Part shown: positions 16,897-22,639 of the stretch, one piece after another
Position numbering within the stretch: position 1 is the stretch's first letter
Layout of the letters: every line of letters starts with the position of its first letter
Virus record (IMG/VR): IMGVR_UViG_3300006917_000161
Coordinates: 1-23,133 of that record
Origin: a virus
Strand: one strand, 5' to 3'
Length of the DNA stretch: 23,133 nucleotides
The notes under the pieces: generated by a model
What the model was told of the DNA's origin: nothing
The model's input: the letters and a program-made list of their open reading frames with translations, nothing else
The model's database searches: none
Translations under genes and position numbers: made by a program

Positions 16897-17209
16897 GGAA
16901 TTCAGGAATCAATGGCGCACCGTTCTTGCCTGTATGTTCAATTTCTTGCTTCTCTTTCCAGCCCATTCTGCACTTGGCCCAGAAGATTGCGGCAGTTAGA
17001 TTTGTTTGCGCTTGCTGGTACAGGAATCTGCCGACTGTGGCATTGGCTTTGATTGCGCCAAGCTCCAATTCTTCGGGAAAGTATTTGCGCAGAGTCTTTT
17101 CGTCGCAGCCAATCACCTTTGCAATATCTTTCTGAGGAACCCCAACAGCAGCCATTGCTTGAACTAGCGACCGATCTTTATCTGTGGGACTAAAGGGCTT
17201 TTGTGCCAT
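16853..17209 (-). CDS. terS: Terminase small subunit
   Basis: A 118-residue DNA-recognition subunit of the packaging motor. Residues 10-45 carry a helix-turn-helix (LVQAMAAVGVPQKDIAKVIG, then CDEKTLRKYFPEEL), followed by the oligomerisation helices (ANATVGRFLYQQAQT; AAIFWAKCRMGWKEK). The AIFWAK...GWKE signature is typical of a common small-terminase family. A good Shine-Dalgarno (AAGGAAAG) precedes ATG 17209. The start lies 17 nt after a tRNA-like element, and the C-terminus overlaps terL. Packaging specificity (cos or pac) cannot be read from the sequence. Confidence 0.92.
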   Translation of the reverse strand: MAQKPFSPTDKDRSLVQAMAAVGVPQKDIAKVIGCDEKTLRKYFPEELELGAIKANATVGRFLYQQAQTNLTAAIFWAKCRMGWKEKQEIEHTGKNGAPLIPEFHVNILKIGTGSDSK

Positions 17210-17888
17210 TGCTTTCCTTTTCTAAATGGAGCGCACCGGTCGGACTTGCACCGCCATCTTCCGACTGGTGAGTCGGCTGTTCTACTCTTGCACTAGGTGC
17301 GCACTTTTTCAGCCAGTAAATATATTTTATTTTTCCAGCTGTTTTGATTTTCTTTAAATTTGGATCAACTGCTTTTTTCAACGTCTTTATGCTTCTAGTT
17401 CCATACTTCGATCCGACTGTGCGAGGATGTACTTTTTTGCCAAGAAAGAAATAATGTTCATCAAAACATTCGCCATCTTTTATGAAGTTGCTTGCTTGAT
17501 ATATCTTGCCTTCGTGCCCCTGATCTCGATCGGCATACGAAACGACCAGCGCCAGTCCTGGGCAAAGTTTCTTGACCATTGATAATGCAATTTTTATTAG
17601 TCTGCTGACTGGCGTTGCATGTTGTCCCAGTGCGATTCGCACAAGCTCGCAAGCCTCGTTTTTTTTTAATCCATATGGTCGAGCCAGATTCATATTTGCC
17701 CCGATGCCGAAAAGTATGCAGCCAATAAACTTTTTATTTTCCCAGACCCCGATCTTTATCAACTTACTACTTGGCATAGAGCGAGAATAGTGCCAGCGCA
17801 TAACAGCATATTTGGCTGCATCGTAGCTGCACCAGTCAAGGCGTAAATCTATGTCCACATTCTGGGCACTCTGCTTGCTTTGGTTCAT
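17190..17888 (-). CDS. Mom-like DNA modification protein (GNAT-type), with tRNA-derived C-terminus
   Basis: A 232-residue homologue of the Mu Mom family, which modifies adenine in phage DNA and protects it from host restriction. Visible family features: LDWCSYDAAKYAVMRWHYSR at 17-36, LIKIGVWENKKFIGCILFG at 43-61, CELVRIAL at 80-87, PVSRLIKIAL at 93-102, and VVSYADRDQGHEGKIYQASN at 115-134. The GNAT-type core appears complete. It starts at ATG 17888 with an AAGGA site, overlapping the ParB-type gene by 53 nt. After residue 195 the frame passes straight through a 76-nt tRNA-like element (residues 196-221) and stops inside terS, giving a Pro/Ser/Gly-rich tail unlike the rest of the protein. Homologues' C-termini were not compared here. 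Confidence 0.85.
   Translation of the reverse strand: MNQSKQSAQNVDIDLRLDWCSYDAAKYAVMRWHYSRSMPSSKLIKIGVWENKKFIGCILFGIGANMNLARPYGLKKNEACELVRIALGQHATPVSRLIKIALSMVKKLCPGLALVVSYADRDQGHEGKIYQASNFIKDGECFDEHYFFLGKKVHPRTVGSKYGTRSIKTLKKAVDPNLKKIKTAGKIKYIYWLKKCAPSARVEQPTHQSEDGGASPTGALHLEKESNGTKAL
17227..17302 (-). other. 76-nt tRNA-like element, probably degenerate tRNA or structured mimic
   Basis: On the minus strand a perfect 7-bp acceptor stem (GCGCACC with GGTGCGC) is followed by T and an encoded CCA, and the total is exactly 76 nt. There is a 5-bp anticodon-type stem (CCGAC/GTCGG) and a T-loop TGCAAGT. Faults: the anticodon loop TCACCA has six bases, the D stem has a G-A mismatch (GTGC/GAAC), the T stem has a G-A mismatch, and there is one extra C before the acceptor 3' strand. 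If read, the anticodon would be CAC (Val). It lies fully in frame inside the end of the Mom-like gene and 17 nt before terS. It could be a decayed tRNA, an RNA-processing signal, or a packaging-site structure. I would not call it a working tRNA. Confidence 0.5.
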
Positions 17889-18309
17889 CTAGCTTTCCTT
17901 GATCGTCAATCGAGCCTGGTTCAAAATTTATTTCTTTAAGACTATCCAGCCCCCAATCAGCCAGATCAAGGCCGGAGTCCTCGAGCGAATCGAGTTCCAA
18001 GTTCAGATTATCAAAGTCCCAGAGCGAATCATTCTGTAATTTGTTATCCAGAATTCTGTACGCTTTCTTCTGTACTTCGGACAGGTTGCTTTTTTTATAC
18101 ACAGGAACAAACTGGAATCCGAGATGCTGCGCAGCGAGCAATCTGCCGTGACCTACTAAGCACTCGTTATTCTCATCAATCACAATTGGCTGATTGAATC
18201 CGAATTCTTTGATTGATTTAGCTATGCGTTCAATCTGGATTTTATCATGGCGGCGGTTGTTGAATTCGTACGGAGTGATTTGATCAATCGGAAAGTCTTC
18301 AATCTTCAT
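17836..18309 (-). CDS. ParB-type nuclease-like domain protein with C-terminal CxxC motif
   Basis: A 157-residue protein with an N-terminal ParB/Srx-type domain: IDQITPYEFNNRR at 8-20, a helix (KSIKEFGFNQPIVID), the signature LVGHGRLLAAQHLG at 51-64, and the following VQKKAYRILDNKL helix. In many phages this domain heads a DNA methyltransferase; here no methylase follows. Instead the protein ends with an acidic linker and CPECGH at 148-153, half of a zinc knuckle. The gene overlaps the Mom-like gene by 53 nt, so the pair is probably expressed and used together, possibly for DNA targeting or modification. Only one CxxC pair is present, so metal binding would need a dimer or a partner. Confidence 0.8.
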   Translation of the reverse strand: MKIEDFPIDQITPYEFNNRRHDKIQIERIAKSIKEFGFNQPIVIDENNECLVGHGRLLAAQHLGFQFVPVYKKSNLSEVQKKAYRILDNKLQNDSLWDFDNLNLELDSLEDSGLDLADWGLDSLKEINFEPGSIDDQGKLDEPKQAECPECGHRFTP

Positions 18310-19390: not shown

Positions 19391-20347
19391 ATGGCACACG
19401 AATTTGAATCTGGATTTTTTGTAAGAGAACCGGCTTGGCATAAACTTGGCATTGTATTGGATGAGCCGCCTACGATTGAAGACGCAATCATTCAGGCTGG
19501 ATTGAACTGGGAGGTCGTAAAGAAGCCTTTATTTCTTGGCAATGGCCAGGAAATTGACGACAAAGTAGCAATCGTTCGCAATAGCGATAACAGCTATCTG
19601 GGAACGGTCGGCATCAACTATGAGCCGGTGCAGAATATTGAGGCTTTCAAGTGGTTTCAGCCATTCATCGACGAAGGTGCCCTTAGCTTGGAAACTGCCT
19701 TAAGTTTGCGCAATGGCAAGCGGGTTTGCGTTCTTGGCAAGTGGAACCGCGAGGGTGAAGTGATTGAAGGAGATCGGATCAAATCTTATCTGCTTTTCTC
19801 AACTGCGCATGATGGTTCAATGGCTGTTCACTGTCAGCTGACAGACATCAGAGTTGTCTGTATGAATACTTTCAAGCTAGCACTTCGGGCTGCTGAGAAT
19901 GGCAGCGAGCAAGCATTGAAAGTGCGGCACACAAAGAATGTGAAGCTCGGCTTAGAGGCTGTGCGCAATTGCATCGACTATGTGAATGGCGAATTTGAAC
20001 TGACGCTTCAGCAGTACCGCAAATTGCAGCGCCAGAAATTGCCGATCAATGGCCTTGAAAATTATGTCAAGGAAGTAATCGGAATTGAAGATTTCAAAAC
20101 TAAAAAGACCGGCGAGGATAAGAAGCCGAAAGTTTTTGAAATCACCAAAGAGCTGTATGAGCGTGGCCTTGGCAGCGACATTCCTGGAGTCAGAGGAAAC
20201 TACTGGGGCGCTTTCAATGCCGTTACTGAGTGGGTGGATCACTACCGGGGCAGAGATGCAGAACTGCGACTGGAGAATATGCTTCTGGGCCATGGTGCAG
20301 AGCTAAAAACCAAAGCATTTAATGTAGCTTTGGCGCACTGCAATTAA
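19391..20347 (+). CDS. DUF932 / phage-plasmid-like protein (TIGR03299-type)
   Basis: A 318-residue member of a widespread phage and plasmid family of unknown molecular function. Visible signature: MAHEFESGFFVREPAWHKLG at the N-terminus, then LDEPPTIEDAIIQAGLNWEV, YLGTVGINYEPVQN, GKRVCVLGKW, LLFSTAHDGSMAV and TDIRVVCMNTF. The C-terminal part has GVRGNYWGAFNAVTEWVDHY and ends ALAHC before Asn. Length and motif order match the family. Often found near recombination or replication genes in phages. Shine-Dalgarno TTGGAGGAA precedes ATG 19391. A terminator follows, so it is the last gene of the first early unit. Confidence 0.92.
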   Translation: MAHEFESGFFVREPAWHKLGIVLDEPPTIEDAIIQAGLNWEVVKKPLFLGNGQEIDDKVAIVRNSDNSYLGTVGINYEPVQNIEAFKWFQPFIDEGALSLETALSLRNGKRVCVLGKWNREGEVIEGDRIKSYLLFSTAHDGSMAVHCQLTDIRVVCMNTFKLALRAAENGSEQALKVRHTKNVKLGLEAVRNCIDYVNGEFELTLQQYRKLQRQKLPINGLENYVKEVIGIEDFKTKKTGEDKKPKVFEITKELYERGLGSDIPGVRGNYWGAFNAVTEWVDHYRGRDAELRLENMLLGHGAELKTKAFNVALAHCN

Positions 20348-20464: not shown

Positions 20465-20641
20465 ATGACTGAATTAATTGGCATATCTGAATTAATGAAA
20501 CGGCTGCAAGTTTCAAGGCAGACAATTCACAAGTACTGCAAGAAGGGGCTACCCTTTCTTCGTGCACCGGGGCAAAAAACGGTGAAATACTTTGACTGGG
20601 TTGCAGTTATTGAATGGCTAAAGGAAGGGGGCAAAAAATGA
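20465..20641 (+). CDS. Small HTH protein (MerR/excisionase-like)
   Basis: A 58-residue DNA-binding protein. GISELMKRLQVSRQTIHKYC is a winged-helix/MerR-type recognition region, followed by KKGLPFLRAPGQKTVKYF (the wing) and a Trp-containing helix (WVAVIEWLKEGG). This pattern matches excisionase and small phage regulator domains. ATG 20465 has GGAGG upstream; a longer frame begins upstream but overlaps the promoter and terminator, so it is rejected. The stop overlaps the replication gene start (ATGA). Could regulate promoter 2 or act in replication; no integrase gene is in the window. Confidence 0.75.
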   Translation: MTELIGISELMKRLQVSRQTIHKYCKKGLPFLRAPGQKTVKYFDWVAVIEWLKEGGKK

Positions 20642-21441
20642 CAAAATCAAAAGAGCGTTCCCCGGCCATGCAATTTTACTTTCGACAATTCTCTGGTGAT
20701 GAGGCTGTAATGGCGATGGATCTGGATGCTGTGGGGGCGCATATATTGCTTATGTGCGCTGCCGGTTCGGCATCATCTGGCTACAAAATTGAGGCAGATG
20801 AGAGAGCGATTCGGACACGACTTCGGAACCCAAATAATTCCGATTTTGAGCGAATAAAAGGCCAACTTTTAGCCGGTGCCTGGAAGATCAGCGAGGATGG
20901 CAAGCATTGGGTTCAGGAAGGAATGAAGCGTACATTATTGAAACAAAAGGAGTTTTCGAGAAAGCAAAAAGAGAATGCGCGGAAGCGTTGGGGCGATGCC
21001 AAATCGATGCCAGATGAGTGCCAAAAAGATGCCAAAGCGATGCCTTCTTCTTCATCTACATCTTCATCTACATCTGAGGATCTAAAAAAAGAAATTAAAG
21101 AAAAAAAGGGGCCTCGATTTCCAGCCAACCTTCAAACCGAAGACTGCCGGGCTGCTTGGGCAAGCTGGCTGAAACACAAGCAGACCAAGAAGCAGAAATA
21201 CCAATCCGTGGAAACCGAAGAACGGGCTTTGGCAAATTGGGCTGAGGCAACGCCAGAAGAATTCATCGCTGCTGTAAATTTCTCAATTGGAAATAATTAT
21301 TCTGGAATTTTTGCAGACAAGCGCAATGGGGCCACAAGGCAATTCCAGCAAAAGAAAACACCGGCACAAAAAACTTTTGAAACTGGTCAGCGGTTGTACG
21401 AGCAAGCGATACTGGAGGAACAAGCAAATGCAAAAAAGTGA
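20638..21441 (+). CDS. Replication initiation protein, DUF1376-like, with embedded origin-like repeats
   Basis: A 267-residue protein of the phage replication-initiator type. N-terminal domain (about 8-110): MQFYFRQFSGDEAVMAMDLD, AVGAHILLMCAAGSASSGYK, then KGQLLAGAWKISEDGKHW, ending with a basic helix KQKENARKRW. A low-complexity linker (about 118-160) contains DAKSMP/DAKAMP and a Ser/Thr run. The C-terminal domain has AAWASWLKHKQTKKQKYQSV and FIAAVNFSIGNNYSGIF. The architecture (DNA-binding N-domain, linker, C-domain) parallels lambda O. ATG 20638 overlaps the HTH gene stop with AGGAAGGGGG upstream. Within the linker DNA lie five 11-bp repeats and an A-rich tract. Overlaps the next gene by 14 nt. 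Confidence 0.8.
   Translation: MTKSKERSPAMQFYFRQFSGDEAVMAMDLDAVGAHILLMCAAGSASSGYKIEADERAIRTRLRNPNNSDFERIKGQLLAGAWKISEDGKHWVQEGMKRTLLKQKEFSRKQKENARKRWGDAKSMPDECQKDAKAMPSSSSTSSSTSEDLKKEIKEKKGPRFPANLQTEDCRAAWASWLKHKQTKKQKYQSVETEERALANWAEATPEEFIAAVNFSIGNNYSGIFADKRNGATRQFQQKKTPAQKTFETGQRLYEQAILEEQANAKK
20995..21107 (+). repeat. Candidate replication origin: five 11-bp iterons, 12-bp tandem repeat, A-rich tract
   Basis: Five copies of a GATGCCAAA-type unit begin at 20995, 21006, 21017, 21028 and 21039; the TGCC core recurs with exact 11-bp spacing (20997, 21008, 21019, 21030, 21041). Since 11 is not a multiple of three, amino-acid repetition cannot explain the period. Next come two perfect copies of TCTTCATCTACA (21049-21072) and a purine/A-rich tract (21083-21107). 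Iterons then an AT-rich stretch inside the initiator gene is how the lambda origin is laid out. Origin function here is inference. Confidence 0.55.
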
Positions 21442-21988
21442 GATGATAAAAATTTTGACGATTACGAAATCGCTTTACGCGCACCAAGAACTGACAGCAC
21501 CAGAAATCGATGCATGGTTTTTGTGGTTTGGCCGCGAAGATTCAGAAGCATTTTGCAGAGCGATGCAATCAGCGAGCAAGAGCAGCGAATTTTTCCCAAC
21601 GCCTGGGGCTGTGCAGAAATTTTTGGAAAAAGAAACGCTGCCCGAAACTTTGACTTGCACTGCTGCTGAGGCGTACGCGAATCGAGGCAGCCCAAAACTT
21701 TTGATCAGATACGCTGCGCAATTTGCAGACCGAACAGTGCCGCGACCGATGAAGCAATACGGCTCGATTGAAGAACTGAACCGTGCCCATGCGGTTTACG
21801 ATGCGACTTGGCAGAGAGAATTTAAAAATCGATTCGAGCAAATGCAGGATGCCGCACTGGCGAAAGTCAGGGCTGGAAAGGATTACAAGCAAGCAATCTT
21901 TGAAGCGGTCGGTGTCGATGCCGGGCCAAAGCAGCTGGAATTGACCGAAGGGCAGCGCAAGGCTTTGGGAATCGTGAGGCTGGCATAA
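21428..21988 (+). CDS. Probable replicative helicase loader/accessory protein
   Basis: A 186-residue protein. The N-terminal part (LTITKSLYAHQELTAPEIDA; WFLWFGREDSEAFCRAMQSA; then FFPTPGAVQKFL) resembles the small helical domain of phage helicase loaders such as SPP1 G39P, where a Trp-rich helix pair is followed by a FPPTP-type motif. The C-terminal part is helical and charged (NRAHAVYDATWQREFKNRFE; RAGKDYKQAIFEAVGV) and ends with EGQRKALGIVRLA. It directly follows and overlaps the initiator gene by 14 nt, the usual place for a loader (compare lambda O-P). Start ATG 21428 has GGAGG nine bases upstream; ATG 21443 is a weaker option. Functional call is from pattern and order. Confidence 0.7.
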   Translation: MQKSEMIKILTITKSLYAHQELTAPEIDAWFLWFGREDSEAFCRAMQSASKSSEFFPTPGAVQKFLEKETLPETLTCTAAEAYANRGSPKLLIRYAAQFADRTVPRPMKQYGSIEELNRAHAVYDATWQREFKNRFEQMQDAALAKVRAGKDYKQAIFEAVGVDAGPKQLELTEGQRKALGIVRLA

Positions 21989-21989
21989 C

Positions 21990-22169
21990 ATGGAAATCAA
22001 AACATTATTCTATTATCATGAGCAAAAAGGGCGATTTTCAGAGCGAAATTCAAACCCGGCCTTTTTTAAAATAGCGATTAAAAGGCCCAGGATGACCGCC
22101 ATTCAATTTTCTAGGTCAATTTGGCCTATGCCACGTATTTTGATTTTTAGCGGCCTGGGGGCAATTTGA
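21990..22169 (+). CDS. Tiny early ORF (59 residues), uncertain
   Basis: ATG 21990 begins two bases after the loader stop, with GAGG 11 bases upstream, and the frame ends at a TGA that overlaps the TTG start of the HNH gene. The product starts MEIKTLFYYHEQKGRF, is basic in the middle (KIAIKRPRM), and ends hydrophobic (RILIFSGLGAI). It exactly fills the 177-nt gap between two genes, in keeping with the tight packing here. No family is recognised; it may simply be an untranslated spacer. Confidence 0.4.
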   Translation: MEIKTLFYYHEQKGRFSERNSNPAFFKIAIKRPRMTAIQFSRSIWPMPRILIFSGLGAI

Positions 22170-22639
22170 AAAAAGACCACATAAAAATTTTTGGCAATGT
22201 AGTGATGGTTTCAGCCTACTGTCCAGAATGCCAAGATGAGGCATTGATTGCGCAGGGGGAATATACCTGCTGTGGAGCAAGCTACGAAGAAAAAAAGCTG
22301 GATAAAATTGTGCGCGAATCTGAGCCGGTCAATAAGCGAAAAATTTTAGGAAGAAAATCACGCGAGGAAATTTTAGCACAGCAAAACTTCTGCTGCTTTT
22401 ATTGTGATCGGAGATTTGGAAAAACTGTTTACAGAAAAGGAAAGCCGATTGCTTTAAAAATAAATTACGATCATCAAGTTCCGTTTGCTTATGGACAGAA
22501 TAATTCTGCTGACAATTTTGTAGCTGCTTGCCACATTTGCAATGCAATAAAAAGCAGCATGCTTTTTGATTCAATTGATAAAGCCAGGTTGCACATTCTT
22601 GCTGCTTGGGCAGAGAAAGGCATAACAGATGAAAAGTAG
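22166..22639 (+). CDS. HNH endonuclease with N-terminal zinc ribbon
   Basis: A 157-residue nuclease. An N-terminal Cys4-type ribbon uses C19, C22, C35 and C36 (CPEC, then TCCG). The HNH domain uses C77-x2-C80, D102-H103 (the catalytic His pair in YDHQVPFAYG), N117 (DNF) and CHICN at 122-126. All core positions are present. Start: TTG 22166 with GGGGG a few bases upstream; starting at the internal ATG 22205 would still keep the first Cys pair but lacks a ribosome site. It could be a packaging-associated HNH, a replication or repair nuclease, or a homing-type enzyme; no intron or insertion signs are seen. Confidence 0.85.
   Translation: MKKDHIKIFGNVVMVSAYCPECQDEALIAQGEYTCCGASYEEKKLDKIVRESEPVNKRKILGRKSREEILAQQNFCCFYCDRRFGKTVYRKGKPIALKINYDHQVPFAYGQNNSADNFVAACHICNAIKSSMLFDSIDKARLHILAAWAEKGITDEK

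Follow-up and report, generated by a model that had tools for sequence, protein, structure and literature searches.

Does a run of short repeats inside the reading frame of a phage gene serve the protein that is encoded there, or does it serve the DNA in which it is written? The question is raised by a viral record, IMG/VR IMGVR_UViG_3300006917_000161, of which positions 1 to 23,133, here called the window, were analysed. The elements of interest lie in and around a single gene. The following list gives coordinates, strand, identity and, in brackets, the basis of the assignment:

20465..20641, plus strand: gene of a small HTH protein, overlapping the start of the initiator gene (ATGA) (profile matches)
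20638..21441, plus strand: putative replication initiator gene, 267 aa (PHROG matches, AlphaFold model, fold look-up)
20917..20991, plus strand: codons of a long helix, aa 94-118, ending in A..RW; proposed iteron-recognition element (AlphaFold model, motif/core co-variation)
20995..21045, plus strand: iteron array of five 11-bp units, consensus GATGCCAAANN (TGCC positions, chain search, shuffles)
21050..21073, plus strand: two exact 12-bp copies of CTTCATCTACAT, hexamer-like pyrimidine-rich strand (sequence)
21083..21107, plus strand: A-rich tract, candidate DNA-unwinding element (sequence, AT profile)
21428..21988, plus strand: gene after the initiator, weakly helicase-loader-like (phrog_2289, E 0.0036)

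The original prediction, made from the sequence alone, had made three claims: that TGCC occurs five times at exact 11-bp steps, that each copy is in a different codon frame, and that a 12-bp tandem repeat and then an A-rich tract come after them. The first claim holds: the copies start at 20997, 21008, 21019, 21030 and 21041. So does the third. The second holds only in the sense that the copies cycle through all three frames (2,1,0,2,1). The five units read GATGCC, except for unit three, which reads AGTGCC. The array is the sole chain of at least five copies of any 4-mer in the 23,133-bp record, when spacings of 5-40 bp are scanned. Four TGCC at 11-bp steps, with one mismatch allowed, do not occur a second time in the window and were found in none of 100 dinucleotide shuffles. 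Codon-order shuffles of the window gene reached five copies in 0 of 300 trials. Synonymous shuffles of the same gene kept the five-copy chain in 4% of cases, because the codons for Met-Pro and Cys-Gln dictate it. The protein sequence partly explains the pattern in this single gene; for strong statistical support one has to turn to the whole family. Far away from the array, from position 792 onward, there are five CAG spaced by exactly 36 bp, within a gene at 166-1296 on the minus strand.

The product of the initiator gene is predicted to consist of a winged-helix-like N-terminal domain, a long helix ending in ..ENARKRW, a low-confidence linker encoded by the array, and a C-terminal domain. In the AlphaFold model, which has a mean pLDDT of 68, the helix (aa 94-118) is modelled with a pLDDT of about 85-91 and stops exactly at RW, the codons of which are 20986-20988 (R117) and 20989-20991 (W118); the array falls in the predicted linker between the two domains. 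The sequence itself discloses little. Residues 10-154 match phrog_9327, a primosomal protein, weakly (E 0.0018), and the C-terminus matches phrog_18589 (E 2e-5). No Pfam family exceeded its cut-off for the 267-aa protein, and the Pfam scan of the window gave no match to DUF1376 or RepA_N (PF06970) at E 0.1. A PHROG search with the protein yielded no match to the lambda-O family, and a sequence search of the PDB no match either. In the fold look-up the top realigned chains for the window model were staphylococcal Rep initiators (4pql with Z 8.0, 80 aligned residues and an rmsd of 3.1; 5kbj with Z 7.5; 4pt7; 4pta), and the winged helices of eukaryotic ORC came just below them at about Z 6.5. With the model of another initiator, L532, staphylococcal Rep initiators rank second, third and seventh (Z 5.0-5.4). 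With Z values of 8 at most, all these fold matches are borderline and are not taken as evidence of family membership. Foldseek retrieved nothing under E 0.001 with either model; for the window model the Rep matches had E above 0.1.

The small HTH gene and the initiator gene likely belong to one operon. A DUF932 protein (E 8e-43) is encoded upstream of the initiator in the same early operon, at 19391-20344 on the plus strand, and an HNH endonuclease-like gene (phrog_2118, E 2e-10) follows at 22166-22636, also on the plus strand. Immediately downstream of the initiator, named phages encode a DnaB-like helicase, an IstB/DnaC-like ATPase, a replicative helicase or a primase/helicase. On the minus strand, a gene at 17193-17888 shows a strong match to the Mom family (PF25680, E 7e-42), from which it is likely that the phage modifies its DNA; it is overlapped by the gene of a ParB_N-domain protein (E 5e-7, 17839-18309, minus strand).

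Close relatives of the window protein were found neither in phages, except for a weak C-terminal match, nor in plasmids, and the viral contigs contain only the same phage again, at 99.9% identity. We therefore have to argue from remote relatives, and conservation of the 11-bp step is demonstrated in remote families, not in the window's own lineage. Such relatives are abundant. Five ATGC at 11-bp steps occur in at least 120 stretches of viral contigs; our own estimate of the chance expectation, from 20 fixed bases, is about 0.1. Among 43 representative array-bearing ORFs, DUF1376 is present in 17 and Lin1244_N in 12, and the PHROGs matched most often are those of primosomal or replication-initiation proteins. 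At 10 and 12 bp, the spacings used as controls, there are matches as well, yet these are mainly perfect tandem repeats and seldom lie near an RW motif. When only ATGC arrays with variable linkers are counted, the RW motif is close by in 34/46 at 11 bp, as against 3/15 at 10 bp and 2/16 at 12 bp. The ATGC pattern was of little use in genome contigs, where the matches are mostly tandem repeats.

A non-circular test was obtained by letting the N-terminal domain (DUF1376, Lin1244) alone decide which genes were taken, whether or not they had an array. In 48 such genes from bacterial genomes there are 61 period-11 triples of 4-mers (10 genes), versus 2.1 in synonymous and 0.3 in codon-order shuffles. 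The 35 non-redundant viral DUF1376 genes contain 155 (29 genes) versus 13 in synonymous shuffles, and 23 Lin1244 genes contain 58 (10 genes) versus 5.7. Harmonics at 22 and 33 accompany the period of 11 in these domain-picked genes, while in the same synonymous-shuffle comparison periods 10 and 12 stay at background level in the viral DUF1376 and Lin1244 genes. By a strict rule, many members of both families have no array.

The usual place of the array is directly after the N-terminal domain, in most loci about 350 bp inside the gene. Among relatives with a nearly identical domain the core can be ATGC, TTCAAC, CGCA or GCGAA, the place and the 11-bp step remaining constant, and some arrays are inverted relative to the gene, so that both orientations occur. 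What is conserved across many phage initiator genes is the 11-bp step, while the linker and even the core vary. One gene (L523, starting at 1501) has, in addition to its linker array, a second ATGC array within the codons of the N-terminal domain (LAMQMQCERNA).

The order of iterons followed by A-rich repeats recurs in the relatives. In the family, the DNA after the array has about 10 percentage points more A+T than the gene, with a strong preponderance of A over T. It is made of 7-bp units in the DUF1376 genes (lag-7 identity 0.50 versus 0.395 in synonymous shuffles) and of 5-bp units, again beyond the synonymous null, in the Lin1244 genes. The 12-bp repeat of the window occupies the place where relatives have A-rich tandem repeats of 5 to 7 bp, and the 30-bp bin from 21074 has an AT fraction of 0.77, compared with 0.54 across the window initiator gene.

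A short basic helix encoded directly upstream of the array can carry one of two motifs. Genes with A..RW have ATGC cores, those with AG..SA..R have TCAAC cores, and this is true in the DUF1376 and in the Lin1244 family. For 105 non-redundant genes the table of motif against core reads 17:0 / 0:36, without a single crossover among the 53 that have both features; the corresponding Fisher value of 3e-14, however, ignores shared descent. We therefore also consider trees of the N-terminal domains. The DUF1376 tree implies six core changes, four of them forced by well-supported branches, and the Lin1244 tree three, one of them so forced, each with a change of motif. Core and motif switch together in 5/5 cases on supported branches and in 9/9 on the best trees; only five independent core switches lie on well-supported branches. 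Among genes fetched later, RW was paired with ATGC in six loci and then in eight, and AG with TCAAC in two loci, without any crossover. These eight RW loci are not all independent: L643 is the query contig L104 or a near copy of it, and L645 and L646 read alike. A later viral scan with L104 as the query, set in advance, comprised four loci only. In the pooled sets ATGC pairs at 11 bp are present in 31/44 RW genes versus 2/70 genes with neither motif. The main weakness of the rule is that it was found by inspection on part of the same data. The window belongs with the RW class: ENARKRW comes directly before the four GATGCC and the one AGTGCC.

Two further groups of initiators deserve mention. 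In L614, L615, L624, L626, L629, L633 and L635 an AT-hook-like ENGKKGGRPKK replaces the RW or AG motif, and the downstream DNA is rich in AACC(C)A and GGGTT; these may represent another core class. In L618, L620, L621 and L473 the motif AG..GA..RW goes with linkers rich in TGGCA/ATGGC, possibly a fourth class. In both cases the core is tentative.

Arrays are not confined to genes, though only a few lie outside them. In L031 an array with 7-bp AT-rich units lies in intergenic DNA directly upstream of an initiator-like gene, whose helix, DAANERW, is of the RW class and whose linker has no array. Non-coding arrays are present in L073 and L122 too, with 7-bp or 5-bp units after them. Since arrays occur in non-coding DNA, a DNA element is favoured over a peptide repeat. 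Between terminase-like and head-like genes, not adjoining an initiator, we also saw 11-bp ATGC arrays in non-coding DNA, together with A-rich repeats of 5 bp (L122:5424 and L098:11546, on the array strand).

Most likely, then, the segment is a replication origin embedded in the initiator gene. The array, its phasing, the co-variation of motif and core, the A-rich repeats and the gene context are established by computation; that the initiator binds here and that replication starts here is inferred, as there are no binding, footprint or replication data. In the mechanism we propose, initiator molecules would bind the repeats side by side, one per helical turn and on one face of the DNA. The bases may be read through the helix that precedes the linker, by A..RW in the case of ATGC-type and by AG..SA..R in the case of TTCAAC-type cores. 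The putative filament of initiators would strain and then melt the adjoining A-rich repeats, and the C-terminal domain, together with the downstream helicase loader or helicase, would put the replicative helicase on the melted DNA. Since the array sits in the linker, the reading frame of the gene stays intact although the gene carries the proposed binding sites of its own product, and protein and site travel together.

The claim of an embedded origin in the original prediction is thus supported, the period being kept in many initiator genes though linker and core change. Absence of the 11-bp period from relatives would have refuted it; the period is present in remote ones. That the array is a DNA signal and not a protein repeat is supported by the family-wide excess over synonymous shuffles, by the switching of cores and by the non-coding arrays. 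The idea that initiator dimers line up on one DNA face has, in the absence of binding data, no support beyond inference. GC skew, proposed as a further check, neither confirms nor refutes the origin. The cumulative minimum lies at 18.2 kb, 2.9 kb from the array, and marks a change of gene strand. In five named phages the minimum is 3.1-3.7 kb from the initiator gene in three and 12-15 kb in two, and again follows the gene strand. With minima that track gene strand at distances of 3 to 15 kb, GC skew is not decisive as an origin locator.

Other explanations have to be considered. The one that survives best, although it is unlikely, sees the array as an operator or assembly site through which the initiator regulates its own replication operon, the origin being elsewhere. 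The intergenic array of L031, upstream of the initiator, speaks for it, and plasmid iteron arrays often serve both as origin and in autoregulation. However, about 350 bp inside the gene, where most arrays are found, is a poor place for an operator, and the A-rich short tandem repeats that come after the arrays are origin-like.

Still less probable is a repeat at the protein level, the linker peptide DAKSMPDECQKDAKAMP being selected and the DNA period arising as a by-product. The 4% of synonymous shuffles that retain the five-copy chain in the window gene, and the wide recurrence of the signature NAxAMxxQCxxNAxAM, can be quoted in its favour. Yet 11 bp is not a multiple of a codon, and an 11-aa repeat would yield a period of 33 bp instead of 11 bp. 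The family-wide excess of period 11 over synonymous shuffles also contradicts it; differing cores encode differing peptides at one 11-bp step, and arrays occur in either orientation to the gene and also in non-coding DNA.

A partition centromere or another multi-site landing pad for a different protein, e.g., of the ParR/parC type, is similarly improbable. Plasmid centromeres also have direct repeats of about one turn, and a ParB_N-domain protein is encoded at 17839-18309. But the array tracks initiator genes, its core tracks a motif of the initiator itself, and the neighbouring genes are those of a helicase or helicase loader. Least probable of all is that the array arose by chance or by low-complexity slippage within a disordered linker: linkers are permissive and many ATGC arrays in the databases are plain tandem repeats, but 0/100 dinucleotide shuffles reproduced the pattern, domain-picked genes show the period-11 excess, and slippage by 11 bp would frameshift the gene.

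The origin reading, preferred over these rivals, can be extended to a bolder one, which taken as a whole we would neither bet on nor against. Phage initiators from several domain families would share a modular, switchable code. Its reader would be a short helix that follows the N-terminal domain and bears the motif A..RW, AG..SA..R or, possibly, AG..GA..RW or ENGKKGGRP. The helix would read an array of 11-bp, one-turn iterons with the core ATGC, TTCAAC or, possibly, TGGCA or AACCC, and this array runs through all three frames of the codons that come next. Exchange of a cassette of roughly 200 bp would swap the origin specificity. The origins of most phages are unmapped. If the reading is true, those of many metagenomic phages and prophages could be read from sequence as an array, a motif and A-rich repeats within the gene, downstream of the part that encodes the N-terminal domain. 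A function would be gained for many 'DUF1376/Lin1244/primosomal' genes. There would be a natural protein-DNA recognition code with several testable switches and a clear example of double-duty DNA, coding and binding in three frames.

How does the window compare with known systems? Repeats inside an O-like or Phg_2220_C gene have been proposed as origin in the phages KIRK (PMC7924643) and MD8 (PMC8508860). These are single-phage predictions, and 11-bp phasing, core classes and a motif/core rule are not mentioned in the relevant passages. In the open-access literature that we searched, neither one-turn arrays nor the motif/core rule are described in general terms; subscription papers were outside the search. 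The rep gene of Lactococcus phage TP901-1 has an internal origin. It is annotated as an experimentally shown replication protein but, unlike the window, it has no 11-bp chain by the same statistic and contains three copies of a 15-bp repeat.

The 'primosomal' phage proteins of the DUF1376/Lin1244 type share with the window gene a layout of N-terminal domain, A..RW helix, ATGC 11-bp array, A-rich repeats and C-terminal domain; they differ in that the window protein has only a weak match to PHROG 9327 and, at E 0.1, none to a DUF1376 model. In pSK41, a staphylococcal RepA_N plasmid, the rep gene itself contains four Rep boxes, to which the initiator binds with its N-terminal winged-helix domain, and the ori-encoded linker is dispensable (PMC5703833). 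There, as in the window, where the likeness is one of layout only, the repeats lie between the N- and C-terminal domains of the initiator; a RepA_N domain is, however, typical of the pSK41 type, whereas the window lacks a RepA_N Pfam match and its fold match is borderline.

The lambda ori in gene O, the site of the O-some, likewise has direct repeats in the codons of the interdomain linker of an initiator gene, followed by A-rich DNA. The original prediction had invoked this order of parts, and the order holds. The lambda-type iteron as such does not: the annotated lambda iterons are 18 bp long at steps of 20-24 bp (39034/39054/39078/39101), and lambda O shows no 11-bp chain under the statistic used for the initiator genes. 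A helicase-loader gene comes next in lambda; in the window the next gene is weakly helicase-loader-like. By the features examined, i.e., the 11-bp step and the lack of a RepA_N or lambda-O match, the window array is a member of neither the lambda nor the pSK41 type. What is said here on binding, on the filament, on melting and on helicase loading is an inference from analogy with these two systems; in this sense the array would work like the lambda ori in O and the pSK41 ori in rep, but with iterons of one helical turn.
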